A DNA stretch of 64,000 nt from Gemmatimonadaceae bacterium (GTDB taxonomy: Bacteria > Gemmatimonadota > Gemmatimonadetes > Gemmatimonadales > Gemmatimonadaceae). Location of the stretch: NCBI GenBank assembly GCA_020846935.1, contig JADLCY010000014.1:62001-126000 (forward strand), in the 5' to 3' direction. The notes beneath the pieces were generated by a model. It did not search any database, was not told where the DNA came from, and saw only the letters and a program-made list of their open reading frames with translations. Below, piece by piece: positions 3,509-18,049 of the stretch. How positions within the stretch are numbered: the first letter of the stretch is position 1; each line of letters begins with the position of its first letter. The position numbers and the translations under genes are program-made.

Positions 3509-5284
3509 TTGAATCCGATCCCCGTTCCCGGCACACCGTGGCAGATCACCGGCAATCACTGGATTGCCCTGCCGTGCATCCACCCGCTCGATGGGGCGAT
3601 TCACGCCGTCGGCGTCGTACATCGGGCGGCGCGTGCGGCCGTGGAGTTCGCCGGCGGACCGGAGTTCGCCCAGGGGGGGGAGGCGCCGCTGGCGCGGCCA
3701 TGGTTGGCGATCGATGGCGTGAAGGTCGAGTGGGACGCGCAGTCGCTGGCGTGGGAACGCGCGTTCGGCTGGCTCCCCACGTTCACGGTCACGCTGGGCA
3801 ATGTGGTCTTGCGGGCCACGATCTTCGCTCCCTATGGCCGTGATGCGGACACGGCGGGAGCTGTGTTCGCACTTTCGTTCGAGAATCGAGCGAACACCGC
3901 GGTGCGCCTTACCGTGGGACTCGACGGCACTCTCGGTCATCGGCAGTTGCGGGTTCGCGAGCCACGGCCGTTCATCGACGCGCACGCGGTGCGTCGTGGG
4001 TCCACGGAGGCGGTCGTGCTTTCGGGCGAAGCGGTTCCCGGTCTGGCGGCGCTGGCGATTGGCGCGGATGGGGCGGCGACCGTGACGACCGAGGGCCAGA
4101 CCTACGCGATCCGAAGGGAAGTGCGGCTCCCACCCAACGGCAACGCGGACGCCGCGTTCTTTCTCGCGGTCGGTCCGGAAGGAGATGGGGCCGAGGCGAC
4201 GGTCGCCGTGATGCGGCGTCGTGGTTGGCGCTACCTGCTGTCGGCGACCCGCGACGCGTTGCGCTCCCTGGAGCAGACCACCGGGAACGAAGCGCTCGAC
4301 GTGCTGATCAACCGCAACCTGCTCTTCGCCTATTTCTATGGCGTGGGTCGGGCGCTCGACGATGCGCACTTCTACCTCGTCCGGACGCGCGTGCCCTGGC
4401 ACTCGCGCGGGGTCACCGTCCGCGAGTGGGAGGCGCTCATGTGGACCCTGCCTGCGGTCCAACTCGCCGATGCGCCCCTCGCCCGCGAGCTGCTCCTGCG
4501 CGCCTGCGAGCTGCACGGCTATTCTCCGGGACAGGGCGTGCGCTACCTCGATGGCACGCTCTTCGAGCCGGGGTTCTCGCTCGAAGGCGCGTCGGCGTAC
4601 GCCATTGCCATCGAGCGCTACATTCGCGAAACCGGAGACGACCAGGTCGTTGAGGAGCCGGTCATCGCCGATACCCTCTACGGATCGTTTGAAGACGTCC
4701 GGGTGCGGCGACACGAGGAGTTCCCGCTGTTCTCAACCGAGATCTCGCCGTCGGGCAAGCCCACGCCCTTCGCGTACACCCTGCACGGGAATGCGGTGGC
4801 GGCGATGGCGCTCGATGTGTTTCGCCGCACGCTCGACGAAGAGACGGCGAAGAACGTGGATGACCCCGAAGCGGTTCGCGCCGCGTTCCTGCGCCATTTC
4901 ACACGTGAGCGCGATGGCAAGGACATCCTGATGTCGGCCGTGAACCTGACGGGCGAGGCCGTGGCCGACGACGAGCCCTCGGCCTCGGTCATCTGGCTCC
5001 CCATGTACGACGCCGCCGACCGTTCGGACTCCGCCTATCGGCGCACCGTGCGGTCCCTCGAGATCGAGCCGCGTGTGCTGGTGCAGCAACTCGCGCACCT
5101 GCTCGGCCCTGAGGCAAACGACACGATGAAGTGGCTGAGGAGAGCGCCCCTGCATGGCGGCCTCGCGGCCGAAGTCGTGGACTCGGACGGGCGTGCGCTG
5201 GAGAATGGCGGGGATGCGTCACTCGCTGGCCTGCTCGCCTATATGCTCTGGCTCGCGGTGCACGTCCTCGGCGTGCATCCGTGA
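3509..5284 (+). CDS. Large protein of possible six-hairpin glycosidase type, coupled to galK
   Basis: The 591-residue protein has no signal peptide and starts at TTG. Its N-terminal ~230 residues look like a beta-sandwich (TFTVTLGNVVLRATIFAPYG, then LSFENRANTAVRLTVGLDG). The rest looks helical, with paired patterns such as LINRNLLFAYFYGVGRALDD, LLLRACELHGYSPG and YAIAIERYIRETGDDQVVEE. That layout is typical of (alpha/alpha)6 glycoside hydrolases or phosphorylases such as GH63, GH94 or debranching-like proteins. The closing GTGA shared with the galactokinase start indicates translational coupling and supports a role in galactoside use. I cannot assign a GH family or catalytic residues; the glycosidase call is inference. 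Confidence 0.55.
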   Translation: MNPIPVPGTPWQITGNHWIALPCIHPLDGAIHAVGVVHRAARAAVEFAGGPEFAQGGEAPLARPWLAIDGVKVEWDAQSLAWERAFGWLPTFTVTLGNVVLRATIFAPYGRDADTAGAVFALSFENRANTAVRLTVGLDGTLGHRQLRVREPRPFIDAHAVRRGSTEAVVLSGEAVPGLAALAIGADGAATVTTEGQTYAIRREVRLPPNGNADAAFFLAVGPEGDGAEATVAVMRRRGWRYLLSATRDALRSLEQTTGNEALDVLINRNLLFAYFYGVGRALDDAHFYLVRTRVPWHSRGVTVREWEALMWTLPAVQLADAPLARELLLRACELHGYSPGQGVRYLDGTLFEPGFSLEGASAYAIAIERYIRETGDDQVVEEPVIADTLYGSFEDVRVRRHEEFPLFSTEISPSGKPTPFAYTLHGNAVAAMALDVFRRTLDEETAKNVDDPEAVRAAFLRHFTRERDGKDILMSAVNLTGEAVADDEPSASVIWLPMYDAADRSDSAYRRTVRSLEIEPRVLVQQLAHLLGPEANDTMKWLRRAPLHGGLAAEVVDSDGRALENGGDASLAGLLAYMLWLAVHVLGVHP

Positions 5285-6598: not shown

Positions 6599-6681
6599 GC
6601 GAAGGTGGCGAAAAGGCAGACGCGGGGGACTTAAAATCCCCTTCCCGCAAGGGAGTGCGGGTTCGAGTCCCGCCCTTCGCA
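6599..6681 (+). tRNA. tRNA-Leu, anticodon UAA
   Basis: The cloverleaf folds by eye. Acceptor strands are GCGAAGG (6599-6605) and CCTTCGC (6674-6680) with discriminator A6681. The anticodon arm is GGGGA-CTTAAAA-TCCCC with anticodon TAA. A long class II variable arm (TTCCCGCAAGGGAGT) is typical of Leu. The T arm is GCGGG-TTCGAGT-CCCGC. The 3' CCA is not encoded (ATGG follows). It reads UUA, and UUG by wobble. TTA codons are extremely scarce in this window, see findings. Confidence 0.96.
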
Positions 6682-11682: not shown

Positions 11683-12954
11683 ATGGCCGGAATTCGCGTG
11701 GCCGGATCCCTCCGGGTCCCCGGCGACAAGTCCATCTCGCACCGCGCCCTCATCTTCGGCGCACTCGCCACCGGACCGGCGCACGTGCGTGGCCTGCTGC
11801 TCTCGGCCGACGTAAAGGCCACCGCGGCGTCGCTGCGTGCCATGGGATGGCCCATTCCTCCGCTGGCCAGAGAGATGGTCATCGTAGGCGAGGGGTGCCA
11901 CCCGCGGCGCCCGGTGGCGGAGGCCGCGCTCCCGTGCGCCAACTCGGGCACGACCGCGCGGTTGCTCTCGGGTGTGGCCGCGGCGCAGCGGCACGCCGCC
12001 GTCCTCGATGGGGACGACTCGCTGCGCGCGCGACCGATGCGGCGGGTCAGCGAGCCCCTGGAGGCCATGGGCGCGGCGTTCACCTGGCTCGCCGACCACG
12101 GTCGCGTGCCAATGCGCATTCAGGGCGGCGACCTCCGGGATCTCGCCTGGCCGATGACCGTCGCGAGCGCGCAGGTCAAGAGTGCGATCCTGCTGGCGGG
12201 TGTGTGCGCGGGAGTGCGTGTGCGCGTCGACGAGCCGATCGAGACGCGAGACCACACCGAGCGCTTTCTTCGCGCCGCCGGCGTACCGCTCGAAACCTCG
12301 GCTCACACGATTTCCCTCGCGCCCGTCGAGCGACTCGATCCCGTGAACGTCGACGTGCCCGGGGATCCCTCATCCGCCGCGTTCTTCGCGGCACTTGCGG
12401 CCGGCGCGGCGCAGGGTCACGTCGTCCTCGAACGCGTGTTGCTCAACCCGCGCCGCACCGGGTTTCTGCGCGTGCTCGAGCGCATGGGCGCGACCATCGG
12501 CATCGAGCGGGACGACGAGAGCGCCGGCGACGTGGTGGGCGACATCGCCGTTACCGCGTCGCCCCTGCGCGCGACGACGATCGGTGGCGATGAGATTCCG
12601 TCGCTGATCGACGAGATCCCGATGCTCGCCGCGCTCGCCGCGCTCGCCGATGGTGAGACCGTGATCTCGGGAGCCGAAGAGCTGCGCGTGAAGGAGAGCG
12701 ATCGCATTGCCACGACGGTTGCGAACCTCCGCGCGTGCGGTGTGGACGCCGACGAGCGACCCGACGGACTCGTGGTGCGTGGGCCGGCACGCATCCGCGA
12801 CGCGGCCATCGCCACCAGGCATGACCATCGGATTGCCATGGCGTTTGGTGTGCTCGGAGCATTGACGCAGCGCGACCTGCGGTTGGATGATCCCGCGTGT
12901 GTCGACGTCTCCTTTCCGGACTTCTGGCATGAGCTTGCCCGACTCGTCGGCTGA
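11683..12954 (+). CDS. aroA: 3-phosphoshikimate 1-carboxyvinyltransferase (EPSP synthase)
   Basis: It joins shikimate 3-phosphate and phosphoenolpyruvate in aromatic amino-acid synthesis. Conserved elements of the 423-residue protein are RVPGDKSISHRALIFG at the N terminus, ALPCANSGTTARLLSG, RPMRRVSEPLEAMGA, LRVKESDRIA and HDHRIAMAFGVLG. The Gly-rich site around residue 90 has the ordinary NSGTT form. The start is ATG 11683, two bases after the dapD stop. The 3' end overlaps cmk by 26 bases. Confidence 0.96.
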   Translation: MAGIRVAGSLRVPGDKSISHRALIFGALATGPAHVRGLLLSADVKATAASLRAMGWPIPPLAREMVIVGEGCHPRRPVAEAALPCANSGTTARLLSGVAAAQRHAAVLDGDDSLRARPMRRVSEPLEAMGAAFTWLADHGRVPMRIQGGDLRDLAWPMTVASAQVKSAILLAGVCAGVRVRVDEPIETRDHTERFLRAAGVPLETSAHTISLAPVERLDPVNVDVPGDPSSAAFFAALAAGAAQGHVVLERVLLNPRRTGFLRVLERMGATIGIERDDESAGDVVGDIAVTASPLRATTIGGDEIPSLIDEIPMLAALAALADGETVISGAEELRVKESDRIATTVANLRACGVDADERPDGLVVRGPARIRDAAIATRHDHRIAMAFGVLGALTQRDLRLDDPACVDVSFPDFWHELARLVG

Positions 12955-13657
12955 AGGCTGGCGTCGGGGCCACCTCGTCGTGGCGATCGATGGCCCGGCG
13001 GCCTCCGGCAAGTCCTCGACGGCGCAGTGGGTAGCCGGTCGACTCGGGTTTCGCCACGTGGATTCCGGTGCACTCTATCGCGCCGCCACCGCCGCGGCCC
13101 TCCGAACCGGCCTCGACTCCGCGGCGTGGTCGCCCGCGTTCGTGCTGGAGCAGGCGTCGCGGGTGACGTTGGTACCAAGCGATACGTCGTTTGCCCCCCG
13201 CATCGACGGCGAAGAGGCGGGGGAAGAGATCCGCGGTGCGGCCGTGACCGCCCGAGTGCCACTCGTCGCGCAAATGCAGGTCGTCCGTCAGTGGGTGAAT
13301 GCCCGGGTCCGCGAAGTGGCGACCCGGTTCGACGTGGTCGTCGATGGCCGCGACATGGGGACGGCCGTGTTCCCCGACGCGGAACTCAAGGTGTTTCTCG
13401 TTGCGGATCCCTGGGAACGCGCTCGGCGCCGGCTGGTGCAGCACCTGGGGCGCCGACCCACCGACGACGAGATTGCCGCCGAGACCGAGCTGCTCGTGCG
13501 CCGTGACGCGGCTGATGCCACGCAGACCGTGCAGGCGCGTGACGCGGTCCTGGTCGACACGACCGCCCTGACCCAGACCGAGCAGGTGGAGCGGATCGTG
13601 GCACTCGCGCGTGTGATCCAGCGCACACGCGCCGAAGCGGGTGAAACGCCGCACTAG
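12929..13657 (+). CDS. cmk: Cytidylate kinase
   Basis: It phosphorylates CMP and dCMP. Signatures in the 242 residues are VAIDGPAASGKSSTAQWVA (P loop), LGFRHVDSGALYRA, and VDGRDMGTAVFPDAELKVFL followed by R-x-RRR lid residues. I chose ATG 12929, inside the 3' end of aroA. It adds about 15 residues ahead of the usual N terminus, so a later GTG is possible. The aroA-cmk order is common in bacteria, often ahead of rpsA. Here a radical SAM gene and a glycosyltransferase gene lie between cmk and rpsA. Confidence 0.93.
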   Translation: MSLPDSSAEGWRRGHLVVAIDGPAASGKSSTAQWVAGRLGFRHVDSGALYRAATAAALRTGLDSAAWSPAFVLEQASRVTLVPSDTSFAPRIDGEEAGEEIRGAAVTARVPLVAQMQVVRQWVNARVREVATRFDVVVDGRDMGTAVFPDAELKVFLVADPWERARRRLVQHLGRRPTDDEIAAETELLVRRDAADATQTVQARDAVLVDTTALTQTEQVERIVALARVIQRTRAEAGETPH

Positions 13658-13840: not shown

Positions 13841-14932
13841 ATGGATCCCAACTGGCTCCGGAAGCGACTCTACGAGAGCGTGAACTACCGGCTGCGCACC
13901 TTTGCCGGGGGCCGGTTCGCGTCGTACTGCCGCCCGCCGTCGATCATTTTTCTGCTGACCGAGCGATGCAACGCCCATTGCCTGCACTGCGACATCTGGA
14001 AGAACCGCGGCAGGGAAGACAGCCCTACACAGCAGCAGTGGGAGACGGTGCTCACCGACCTGCGCAAGTGGCTCGGCCCGGTCCAGGTGTCGTTCAGCGG
14101 GGGTGAGGCGCTGCTCAAGCCGTACACCATCGACCTCGTCAGGCACGCGCGGTCCCTTGGCCTCTACCTCGAGATTCTCACGCACGGATTCTGGACCGAC
14201 CAGGGCAAGATCGAGGAACTGGCGCGGGCCAATCCGTGGCGCGTGACACTGTCCTTTGACGGGATCGGCGAGACGCACAGCCGCATCCGCGGTCGCGAGC
14301 GGTTCTTCGAGAAGACCGCCGCGTCGATCGAGACGTTCAAACGCGTCCGCGCGGAGCAGAGCCTTGGCTATACGATCCGGCTCAAGAACGTGATCATGTC
14401 GCACAACCTGCACGACACGATCAACGTGGCGGCGTTCGCGAATCAGCCCGGTATGGAGGTGTTCTACCAGCCCATCGAGCAGAACTACAACACACCCGAA
14501 GACGAGGCCTGGTGGGAAACCAGCGAGAACTGGCCGAAGGACACCGCGAAAGTGGTCGCCAACATCCGGGAGCTGATCGCGCGCAAGCGGCAGGGCTGGA
14601 ACATCGCCAACAGTGAGGCGCAGCTGGAGGCGATGATCCCGTACTTCCAGCACCCCGAATCCATGCGGGTGGCGACCATGAGTCACAGCGCGCACGAGGT
14701 GCGCCAGACCTGTCACGCCCTGAGCACACTGCAGTTTCAGGCCAACGGAGACATCACCGTTTGCAGCGGGGCGCCGCGCGTCGGTAACATCAAGGAGCGC
14801 CCGATCCGCGAGATCTGGGAGTCGAGACCGAAGTTCTGGGAGGGAGGATGCTGCCTCGAGCGGCGACTGACAGCCGAGGAACGCGACACGGTCCTCGTGC
14901 AGCTGGCCAGCGCGACATCGGCAGCGACCTGA
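13841..14932 (+). CDS. Radical SAM protein with SPASM-like C terminus
   Basis: The 363-residue protein carries the radical SAM cluster motif CNAHCLHC (Cys43, Cys47, Cys50), the SAM-binding GGE (FSGGEALLKP), and FDGIGETHSRIRG as in other family members. The C-terminal part has further cysteines in QTCHALSTLQF, DITVCSGAPRVGNIK and GGCCLERR, with the IKERPIREIWES spacing seen in SPASM/twitch domains that hold auxiliary Fe-S clusters. Such proteins modify peptides, proteins or carbohydrates. The substrate is not evident. The downstream glycosyltransferase frame overlaps its 3' end, so they are probably made together. Confidence 0.85.
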   Translation: MDPNWLRKRLYESVNYRLRTFAGGRFASYCRPPSIIFLLTERCNAHCLHCDIWKNRGREDSPTQQQWETVLTDLRKWLGPVQVSFSGGEALLKPYTIDLVRHARSLGLYLEILTHGFWTDQGKIEELARANPWRVTLSFDGIGETHSRIRGRERFFEKTAASIETFKRVRAEQSLGYTIRLKNVIMSHNLHDTINVAAFANQPGMEVFYQPIEQNYNTPEDEAWWETSENWPKDTAKVVANIRELIARKRQGWNIANSEAQLEAMIPYFQHPESMRVATMSHSAHEVRQTCHALSTLQFQANGDITVCSGAPRVGNIKERPIREIWESRPKFWEGGCCLERRLTAEERDTVLVQLASATSAAT

Positions 14933-16137
14933 CGCGGCCGGTCTCCGCGTCGGCCGACGCGGTGGCGTCCGGGCGGACGATCGTCTCGATCTTCGGTCTC
15001 GAGCCGGTCCGCATCGGCGGGGTCGAGGCGTTTGCCCGCGAGTTCTCCGCGCAGCTCGCCGAGTGCGGGTGGCGAAGCGTGTTGTGCTTCCTCGGCGAAC
15101 CGGCTCCGCTCGTACGTGAGTATCTCGAGCTGCCGAACGTGATCGTCGAGGTGCTGCCGGCCGATCTCAAGGCGGCCACCGCCATCCCCGCCGTCTCTCG
15201 GCTCCTTGCCACGTACCGCCCCGAAGTCCTGCAGCTGCAGTTCACGCCATTTCTGAGCCCTATTCCCTGGATCGCAAAGTTGCGCGGGGTGGATCGCGTG
15301 TTCTTTGTCGATCAGGGGTCACACCCGGCGGGATGGACCGATCGCGGCACGCCATCCTGGAAGCGGTGGGCGGCGCGGATGCTCACCCTGCCCCTGAGCG
15401 CGGTCGTCAGCATCAGCGACTACAACCTTCGGGTCCTGCGCTCACGCGGGTTTCTCCCGGTGCGCAAGACGCTGCGCCTGTACAACGCGGCACAGGTCTC
15501 GCGACCGCACGATCGCGCGCTCGGGAACGCCTTCCGCAAGCGCCACGGTGTGCCGCTCGACCGCACGGTGGTCGCCCAGGTCTCGTGGATGATTCCGGAG
15601 AAGGGGATCCCCGATTTGCTCGAAGCGGCTCGCCTCGCGCTCGCCAGTGACGCCTCCCTGCATTTTCTGTTTGGCGGCGAGGGCCCCTGTCGCGCGGAAT
15701 ACGAGGCACTGGCGTCGAGCATGGGGCTGGCGGACCGCGTGACGTTCACTGGCCTGGTCCGCGACCCGTACGGCGAGGGGTTGTTTGACGCGGCCGACAT
15801 CGTCTGCCAGATGTCGCGCTGGGAGGAGGCGTTTGGGTACGTCATCGCCGAAGCCATGGCGGTGAACCGGCCGGTCATCGCCACCCGGGTCGGCGCCATT
15901 CCCGAACTCGTCATCGATGGGGAGACGGGGCACTTGGTGGATCGGGGGGACTATAAGGCGGCGGCTCGACTCATCGTGGGCCTCGCGGCGGACGAGACGC
16001 TGCGGCGGCGACTGGGACTGGCTGGTCGCAAGCGGGCCGAGCAGGAGTTCAACGTCCGAACCAACGCGGGTGAGGCCCTGCGGCTGTTCGGCATCGACGG
16101 GCGTCCCTCGCGTCCTGGGGGCGCGTTGACCGGATAA
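14848..16137 (+). CDS. Glycosyltransferase family 4 protein
   Basis: A GT-B fold transferase of 429 residues. The N-terminal acceptor domain has SIFGLEPVRIGGVEAFAREF. The C-terminal donor domain has VAQVSWMIPEKGIPDLLEAA, HFLFGGEGP and the E-x7-E motif in EEAFGYVIAEAMAVNRPVI, then GAIPELVIDGETGHLV. The ATG at 14848 has GGGAG at suitable distance but lies inside the radical SAM gene (85-base overlap), and the first ~38 residues look unstructured. GTG 14962 is the alternative and gives a typical family N terminus. Donor sugar and acceptor are unknown; cell-surface glycan synthesis is the usual role. Confidence 0.85.
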   Translation: MLPRAATDSRGTRHGPRAAGQRDIGSDLTRPVSASADAVASGRTIVSIFGLEPVRIGGVEAFAREFSAQLAECGWRSVLCFLGEPAPLVREYLELPNVIVEVLPADLKAATAIPAVSRLLATYRPEVLQLQFTPFLSPIPWIAKLRGVDRVFFVDQGSHPAGWTDRGTPSWKRWAARMLTLPLSAVVSISDYNLRVLRSRGFLPVRKTLRLYNAAQVSRPHDRALGNAFRKRHGVPLDRTVVAQVSWMIPEKGIPDLLEAARLALASDASLHFLFGGEGPCRAEYEALASSMGLADRVTFTGLVRDPYGEGLFDAADIVCQMSRWEEAFGYVIAEAMAVNRPVIATRVGAIPELVIDGETGHLVDRGDYKAAARLIVGLAADETLRRRLGLAGRKRAEQEFNVRTNAGEALRLFGIDGRPSRPGGALTG

Positions 16138-16261: not shown

Positions 16262-18049
16262 ATGACTGACGTGACTGCCGCTCCCTCTGCTGGCCTGACC
16301 GCCGCGGAGAAGCGCAAGGCCCAGATGGGCGAACTGCGCCCCCTGGCCAACCGCCGCCCCGAGCTCTACGACGAGGACGAGTATTCCTCGGCCGAGTACG
16401 ACCGCATGCTCGAGATGTACAACGGGACGCTCGCTTCGATCGACGAAGGCGAGATCGTCAAGTCCCGCGTGCTCGAAATCCGCGAGAACCTCGTCGTCCT
16501 CGACATCGGCTTCAAGTCCGAAGGCACCATTCCGCTCGAGGAGTTCAAGGACCTCCCCGACCTCAAGGTCGGTGACGAAGTCGAGGTCTTGCTGGAGCAC
16601 CTCGAGGACCAGGAAGGCTCCGTCGTCCTGTCGAAGAAGAAGGCCGATTTCATGCGCGTGTGGGAGAAGATCCGCATCGCGTACGAAACCGACCAGCCGG
16701 TCACCGGTACGCTCGTCAAGAAGATCAAGGGCGGCGTCGTGGTCGACCTCATGGGCGTCGACGCGTTCCTCCCCGGTTCGCAGATCGCGCTTCGTCGCGT
16801 CCCCAACATCGACGAACTCCTCGGCCAGAAGTACGACTTCAAGATCATCAAGCTCAACAAGCGCCGTCGGAACATCGTCGTCTCGCGCCGCGTGCTGCTC
16901 GAGGCCGAGCGCGCCGGCAAGCGCGAGAAGCTCATGAAGGAGCTGCAGAAGGACCAGGTCAGGAAGGGCGTGGTCAAGAACATCACCGACTTCGGCGCGT
17001 TCATCGACCTCGGTGGTGTCGACGGCCTGCTGCACATCACGGACATGTCCTGGGGCCGCATCCAGCACCCGACCGAGATGGTGCAGATCGGCATGGAGAT
17101 GGAGATCAAGGTCCTCGACATCGACTGGGACCGCGAGCGCATCTCGCTCGGTCTCAAGCAGCTGCAGCCTTATCCCTGGAAGGACGTCATCGAGAAGTAC
17201 CCGGTCGGCACGCGTGTCGCTGGCAAGGTCGTCTCGATCACCAACTACGGCGCGTTCATCGAGCTCGAGCCCGGCATCGAGGGCCTCGTGCACATCAGCG
17301 AGATGAGCTGGACCCGCAACGTGCGTCACCCCTCCAAGATCGTGTCGATCGGCGAGAGCATCGAGGCCGTGGTGCTCAAGGTCGACCCGAACGAGGAGAA
17401 GATCTCGCTCGGCATGAAGCAGACGGAGCAGGATCCGTGGATGGTGCTGCCGCTCAAGTACCCGGTGGGCGCGCGCCTCAACGGCAAGGTTCGCAACCTC
17501 ACGTCGTTCGGCGCCTTCGTGGAGATCGAGCCGGGCATCGATGGGCTCATTCATATCTCCGACATGAGCTGGACCAAGCGCGTGCAGCATCCGTCGGAGG
17601 TCGTGAAGAAGGGTGACGCGGTCGACGTGGTCATCCTTTCGATCGACGCGGACAACAAGCGCATCTCGCTCGGCCTCAAGCAGGCCACCGAAGATCCGTG
17701 GCTGCGCATCGGGGAGACCTATCCCGTGGGCACCGAGTTGCGCGGCAAGGTGGCCCGCCTCATGGAGAAGGGTGTGGTGGTCGACATCGGCAACGACATC
17801 GAGGGCTTCGTCCCGTTGTCGCACCTGCCTTCGGACAAGGCCATCGAGTCTCCGGCCGACCTCTGTTGGGAGGGGATGAACCTCGACCTGCGCGTGGTCG
17901 AAGTCGATCCGATTCATCGTCGCATCGTCCTCACGGTCACGGACATCCCGGCCGAGCAGCCGCCCAAGCCGGAAGGCCCCGTGAAGATCCACAGCGAAGA
18001 CGACGTGCCGGAGATCCCCGCGGATCTGCACATCCCGGACGACGAGTAG
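16262..18049 (+). CDS. rpsA: 30S ribosomal protein S1
   Basis: S1 binds mRNA leaders on the small subunit, which matters here because several genes lack a visible Shine-Dalgarno. The 595-residue protein has six S1/OB repeats; typical cores are GVVKNITDFGAFIDLGGVDG, GKVVSITNYGAFIELEPGIE and GKVRNLTSFGAFVEIEPGID, each followed by HI(S/T)(D/E)MSW. The last repeat is more divergent (GKVARLMEKGVVVDIGNDIE). The start ATG is preceded by AGGAGA. The N terminus has a ~50-residue extension before the first repeat, and the C-terminal tail is acidic. A strong hairpin follows the gene. Confidence 0.97.
   Translation: MTDVTAAPSAGLTAAEKRKAQMGELRPLANRRPELYDEDEYSSAEYDRMLEMYNGTLASIDEGEIVKSRVLEIRENLVVLDIGFKSEGTIPLEEFKDLPDLKVGDEVEVLLEHLEDQEGSVVLSKKKADFMRVWEKIRIAYETDQPVTGTLVKKIKGGVVVDLMGVDAFLPGSQIALRRVPNIDELLGQKYDFKIIKLNKRRRNIVVSRRVLLEAERAGKREKLMKELQKDQVRKGVVKNITDFGAFIDLGGVDGLLHITDMSWGRIQHPTEMVQIGMEMEIKVLDIDWDRERISLGLKQLQPYPWKDVIEKYPVGTRVAGKVVSITNYGAFIELEPGIEGLVHISEMSWTRNVRHPSKIVSIGESIEAVVLKVDPNEEKISLGMKQTEQDPWMVLPLKYPVGARLNGKVRNLTSFGAFVEIEPGIDGLIHISDMSWTKRVQHPSEVVKKGDAVDVVILSIDADNKRISLGLKQATEDPWLRIGETYPVGTELRGKVARLMEKGVVVDIGNDIEGFVPLSHLPSDKAIESPADLCWEGMNLDLRVVEVDPIHRRIVLTVTDIPAEQPPKPEGPVKIHSEDDVPEIPADLHIPDDE

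Follow-up and report, generated by a model that had tools for sequence, protein, structure and literature searches.

A radical SAM enzyme and a GT4 glycosyltransferase inherited together in Gemmatimonadota and Acidobacteriota: a candidate module for tailoring surface polysaccharides

Two genes between cmk and rpsA

In a Gemmatimonadaceae bacterium, genes for a radical SAM enzyme (rSAM) and a GT4 glycosyltransferase (GT) lie between two housekeeping genes, cmk and rpsA, which raises the question of whether the two enzymes form a functional unit and what they act on. The locus was studied in a stretch of 64,000 nucleotides (the window; contig JADLCY010000014.1, positions 62,001 to 126,000). A previous interpretation, made from the letters of this stretch without database searches (the sequence-only reading), had described a radical SAM-SPASM gene next to a GT4 gene, and indeed both open reading frames are real and their domains were confirmed by Pfam. 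The rSAM gene (13841..14932, plus strand, 363 aa) encodes a Radical_SAM domain (E 3.8e-18) and a short twitch-like C-terminal domain, matched by the SPASM model at E 4.8e-5 and, with 24 bits, just above the cut-off of 21.5. The GT gene (14962..16137, plus strand, from the likelier GTG start as judged from start positions across relatives) encodes a GT4-type Glycos_transf_1 domain (E 6.7e-31), with both GT-B halves matched.

The left border of the pair is formed by cmk (12932..13657, plus strand; this inner frame served as query, the longest ORF starting at 12887) and the right border by rpsA (16262..18049, plus strand). In 26 of the 30 cmk loci fetched, cmk was followed by rpsA after a gap of 126-499 bp and the pair was found in none of these, among them an empty site of 236 bp in G029, a member of the same genus (L024). 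Both genes followed cmk in three loci (L022, L023, L030), all from genus members, and the remaining locus (L043) showed cmk without rpsA in view. Thus, the proposed insertion between two usually adjacent genes was borne out, and the pair was present in 3/5 genus genomes searched. A single tRNA was detected in the window, a tRNA-Leu (taa) at 6599-6681, and it does not adjoin the insertion.

From an alternative ATG start, the GT frame would span 14848-16137 (plus strand, 429 aa) and share 85 bases (14848..14932, plus strand) with rSAM, an overlap that the earlier interpretation had highlighted together with GGGAG before the internal start. This part did not hold up. The ATG at 14848 and the preceding GGGAGG are an out-of-frame reading of the conserved rSAM codons Glu-Gly-Gly-Cys-Cys, and this ATG is present in the closest relative (L008) and missing in the third genus copy (L006). 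In a comparison of the window with L008, the overlap was better kept in the rSAM frame (25/27 residues) than in the GT frame (18/27), with 7, 3 and 1 substitutions at rSAM codon positions 3, 1 and 2, respectively. A possible GT start was located -31 to +83 nt from the rSAM stop in 19/19 directly linked pairs, in the window GTG 14962. Because the ATG is not conserved and every one of the 19 linked pairs has a start near the rSAM stop, the long overlap is probably unused as a gene arrangement and probably a by-product of the rSAM protein sequence. Close translational coupling of both genes is likely in many linked pairs, and use of both GT starts in the window is conceivable.

Linkage and inheritance of the pair

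Both proteins were searched for in Gemmatimonadota and Acidobacteriota, and rSAM additionally in short-pattern, plasmid and viral scans. The rSAM query matched in 4/148 genomes of the family, 3/395 of the phylum, 3/347 of an Acidobacteriota sample centred on the L007 genome, 2/8 in the order of G675, 24/200 in the order of G705 (Acidobacteriota) and 5/162 in the class of G148, these genome sets overlapping each other. The total amounted to 35 loci in 34 genomes of the two phyla, G799 having two. The plasmid scan yielded only 22-40% identical matches, mostly PqqE/NirJ-like, and no plasmid copy of rSAM; a single relative, 23% identical, was found on viral contigs. In one locus (L102 620-1694 on the rSAM strand, G926) rSAM is split over two frames, either because the copy is broken or through a sequencing error.

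When the window GT was used as query, a family GT immediately followed rSAM in the same orientation in 19/35 rSAM loci (window, L006, L008, L052, L053, L081, L083, L084, L086-L091, L096-L100) and lay nearby in four more, namely 2.5-2.7 kb downstream (L085, L101), divergently oriented (L095) or at ~7 kb on the other strand (L080). The contig ended inside rSAM in two loci (L082, L104), and the other ten had no GT within the stretch seen, which comprised at least 4.2 kb downstream in seven of them (L054, L056, L092, L093, L127-L129) and less than 4.2 kb in three (L094, L102, L103). With the GT adjacent or nearby in 23/35 loci, and with co-occurrence at the genome level, conserved pairing as tested by gene neighbourhoods is upheld, and the two genes are not rarely adjacent in relatives. 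At first the pairing looked specific to the genus, given the solo rSAMs of L005 and L007, but this view was given up when the pair turned up in Acidobacteriota. The rSAM-adjoining GT of L083 (10089-11246, G940) carries an in-frame stop codon.

Among the 200 genomes of the order of G705, 24 contained rSAM, 20 the GT and 19 both (Fisher p 4.6e-21, a value that is too small because the genomes are related and not independent). A GT without rSAM was present in G809, and rSAM with no family GT found in G073, G775, G962 and G919. Counted by genome, a family GT was detected in 24/31 rSAM genomes tested, a set drawn without G1048, G1056 and G1075, and in addition as contig-end fragments in two (G926, G936). 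Complete copies matched at E <=2.5e-138, as compared with 6e-51 for the best unrelated GT4 in 12 genomes. The rSAM gene was not linked to a GT in G148, G1048, G1056 and G1075; co-occurrence was nevertheless kept with the genes apart in G882, G903, G948 and G148. The GT resided on a contig separate from that of rSAM in G148, G871 and G948, but in G871 rSAM is truncated by the contig end, so that linkage is not readable there.

Distance matrices of rSAM and GT were correlated (r 0.72, a value reached by 0/2000 permutations). In the tree of rSAM proteins, the three sequences from the genus grouped with those of Acidobacteriota (L053, L080, L081, L084, L087, L090) at support 99/95, whereas L054, from the same family as the genus, branched elsewhere. 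Since the genus rSAMs nest among Acidobacteriota and L054 branches apart from them, horizontal acquisition of the pair by the genus is likely from this tree, and the direction would be from an Acidobacteriota-like source into the site between cmk and rpsA. In the GT tree, calculated without one long row (bg_L120_2577), the family GTs, linked and unlinked, were set apart by a branch whose support of 94/53 is not strong; BshA-like genes fell outside this group.

Enzyme classes and the C-terminal cysteine site

The rSAM protein carries CX3CX2C (C43/C47/C50), GGE at 87-89 and a Radical_SAM match above the cut-off, which places it in the radical SAM superfamily. Its auxiliary site reads C291-X11-G303-X4-C308, followed by C337-C338. 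These extra C-terminal cysteines, already pointed out in the sequence-only reading, and the three of the SAM cluster were invariant in 27/27 rSAMs aligned (the partial proteins of L082 and L101-L104 left aside and L095 rSAM cut at 4600); beyond these seven, only C30 was widely conserved (24/27). According to the relevant part of PMC6231123, the SPASM/twitch motif starts with CX9-15GX4C, followed by a gap and CX2C, these being the first four of seven cysteines. The CX11GX4C of rSAM fits this start. The second pair, however, is CC and not CX2C in 27/27, in a region where the SPASM match is marginal and the structural model of low confidence. Only four C-terminal cysteines are conserved, and not the seven of the full SPASM class with its two auxiliary clusters. 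We infer a twitch-like site that would bind a single iron-sulphur cluster, with the adjacent cysteines as putative ligands in a variant of the known motif. In six rSAMs that belong to one clade (L053, L080, L081, L084, L087, L090) the tail after CC shows an APSLTAAxSW-like pattern.

Membership of rSAM in a characterised family, which would have spoken against the sequence-only reading, was not found, as no NCBIfam model came near its cut-off. The window protein (P0001) reached at best 71.8 bits against the PqqE cut-off of 381 and stayed below the curated cut-offs of the named radical SAM families (PqqE, NirJ, AhbC/D, SkfB and others); the best E value over all 27 members was 1.1e-22, the cut-offs being compared for the first member. 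A structure predicted with six sequences (pLDDT 67.7, pTM 0.69) was assigned by Foldseek to SPASM/twitch-type radical SAM enzymes and no finer. The prediction was mediocre and gives no basis for judging the C-terminal cluster site, whose modelling had been suggested, as pLDDT was <50 for residues 277-294 and 335-363, and likewise for 1-32. The nearest solved relatives by sequence and fold include the peptide-modifying SkfB, PqqE, CteB, SuiB and EpeE as well as sugar enzymes, and for this reason the fold leaves the substrate undecided. The second-best sequence match among solved chains was BlsE, a sugar-acting cytosylglucuronate decarboxylase (E 5.8e-14), but it covers the core only (profile 26-196 of 356) and does not suggest a shared reaction.

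The EX7E motif marks retaining GT4 enzymes. In the GT it comprises E327 and E335 (429-aa numbering) and, together with K252, was present in 20/20 relatives, in an alignment that omits the GTs of L083, with its internal stop, and of L006 and L101, which are truncated at a contig end; the Glycos_transf_1 domain and this motif assign the GT to the retaining GT4 class. The protein (P0002) remained below the NCBIfam cut-offs for BshA (89.1 vs 273.7 bits), TIGR03088 (92 vs 409), EpsE (88.1 vs 400) and the rSAM-associated GT family TIGR04157 (42.1 vs 400). The nearest solved relatives of the GT profile were BshA and a phosphatidylinositol-mannoside mannosyltransferase, and 17/20 members matched BshA at E <= 1e-25.

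Genomic context and possible function

Across the 31 clustered rSAM loci, recurrent neighbours were a UDP-glucose/GDP-mannose dehydrogenase (6 loci), heparinase II/III (5), GT2 (4), an asparagine synthase-like protein (3) and galT, UDP-GlcNAc 2-epimerase and a Wzx-like flippase (2 each); one member each of the dehydrogenase, heparinase, galT and epimerase was checked by Pfam and the others were named by eye. In G148 rSAM stands alone (L056), and the GT is part of a cluster, on a different contig, that looks like one for exopolysaccharide synthesis, with WecB, a DegT-type aminotransferase, RmlB, RmlD, Wzc, Wzx, a polysaccharide deacetylase and GTs (named by eye). The window pair and those of L084, L087 and L090 are located among housekeeping genes and not in polysaccharide clusters, with apparent ilvH, ilvC and citramalate synthase genes next to rSAM in the latter three; the module therefore needs no local polysaccharide cluster. 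Likely, this context narrows the target to polysaccharide and argues against peptide. Additionally, a family of ~380 aa without Pfam match recurs beside rSAM (L085 9979-11118, L094, L101, L103), and a gene reading as BshA, a glycosyltransferase that serves to make bacillithiol, lies just upstream of rSAM in L053 and L082. More distant radical SAM proteins with a SPASM-like end are encoded between GT4 and exosortase-like genes in two bacterial groups (L009, L010 7992-8978). These proteins of exosortase-type polysaccharide clusters share the domain order of rSAM, but with ~23-27% identity, another C-terminal cysteine spacing and a separate deep clade (100/99).

Altogether, we consider rSAM and GT to be a co-inherited module that tailors surface or exopolysaccharide, at a probability of roughly 0.58, with a sugar as the presumed substrate of rSAM. 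The conjecture that two enzymes act in one pathway, altering a sugar, lipid or peptide and glycosylating it, is retained in as far as the pairing is conserved and its context is that of polysaccharide; the peptide is disfavoured. A peptide would be the substrate if rSAM crosslinked or epimerised a precursor that the GT then glycosylates, in a RiPP system like those of Bacteroidales, where regions encoding radical SAM enzymes and glycosyltransferases are described (PMC10352776, in the part consulted). Such a system would suit the peptide enzymes among the nearest solved structures, and precursors can be encoded away from the locus. Yet it appears quite unlikely here: in line with the initial remark that no precursor gene is visible beside the pair, none of 889 small ORFs was conserved across divergent loci, and the clusters that did emerge were GT antisense or out-of-frame reads common to three near-identical loci. 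The recognition domain of SkfB occupies residues 12-105 (PMC6231123, relevant part). The stretch of rSAM before its first SAM-cluster cysteine is, at 42 residues, too short for a fused domain of the SkfB type, and Pfam detected no recognition domain in the protein, free-standing PqqD-like genes being outside this search. SkfB and PqqE rank with the closest neighbours of the core in sequence and fold, but rSAM differs from them by the missing recognition domain and precursor, by its low PqqE score and by CC in place of their auxiliary-site CXC pair (PMC6231123, same part). The GT also falls far under the TIGR04157 cut-off.

A product smaller than a polymer, such as a thiol glycoside, glycolipid or aminocyclitol made by a small-metabolite or lipid head-group pathway, would accord with the BshA and mannosyltransferase relatedness of the GT and with the BshA-like genes just before rSAM in two loci. 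We regard it as unlikely, however, given the GT score far below the BshA cut-off, the polysaccharide genes among the recurrent neighbours and the position of the BshA-like genes outside the family GT group. That the two genes are functionally unlinked cargo, which travelled jointly and landed beside cmk, seems very unlikely; some genomes have one of the two genes only and four rSAMs are unlinked, but co-occurrence was kept where the genes are apart and linkage recurs in different neighbourhoods.

For the polysaccharide module, the following course is conceivable. The GT, retaining as judged from EX7E, would extend a growing glycan, probably lipid-linked, by a sugar, and rSAM would generate a 5'-deoxyadenosyl radical that abstracts hydrogen from a sugar C-H; the sugar could be part of the nucleotide sugar, of the lipid-linked glycan or of the chain. 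The single auxiliary cluster might then accept an electron, resulting in oxidation as in BtrN, or a cysteine might give hydrogen back, resulting in epimerisation as in NeoN or HygY. Because four cysteines occupy one auxiliary site and the context is glycan-related, sugar oxidation or epimerisation is the most plausible chemistry, and since no invariant extra cysteine is evident as hydrogen donor, the conservation pattern tilts slightly to oxidation. In the parts of the sources concerned, BtrN is a twitch enzyme of two-electron cyclitol oxidation with the cluster as likely electron acceptor and MoaA is redox neutral (PMC9012708), NeoN epimerises a sugar, with hydrogen donated by Cys249, and a reference title calls HygY a twitch epimerase (PMC10991966). 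Like rSAM, BtrN has a radical SAM core; its C-terminal domain binds a single cluster by four cysteines (PMC6231123, PMC9012708, as excerpted), as that of rSAM may do. Unlike rSAM with its GT4 and polysaccharide genes, BtrN, HygY and NeoN serve antibiotic biosynthesis; compared by description, the last two cysteines are adjacent in rSAM and not CX2C, and none of the three was among the listed sequence or structure matches of rSAM. The fullest version is put forward tentatively: a dedicated rSAM family would, with its own GT4, act on C-H bonds in a sugar of surface polysaccharide, either lipid-linked or bound in the polymer, and would hold its auxiliary cluster partly on adjacent cysteines, so that radical chemistry provides stereochemical or redox editing of an assembled bacterial polysaccharide. 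Among the open-licence papers listed by literature searches, preprints aside, no description of the rSAM/GT pair was found.

If the proposed module is real, bacterial surface glycans would also be shaped by radical chemistry, so far familiar mostly from antibiotics, cofactors and peptides, with sugars beyond the reach of ordinary nucleotide-sugar enzymes as the outcome. The pair represents a compact, testable system, and its adjacent-cysteine motif a new case for the question of what auxiliary clusters do.
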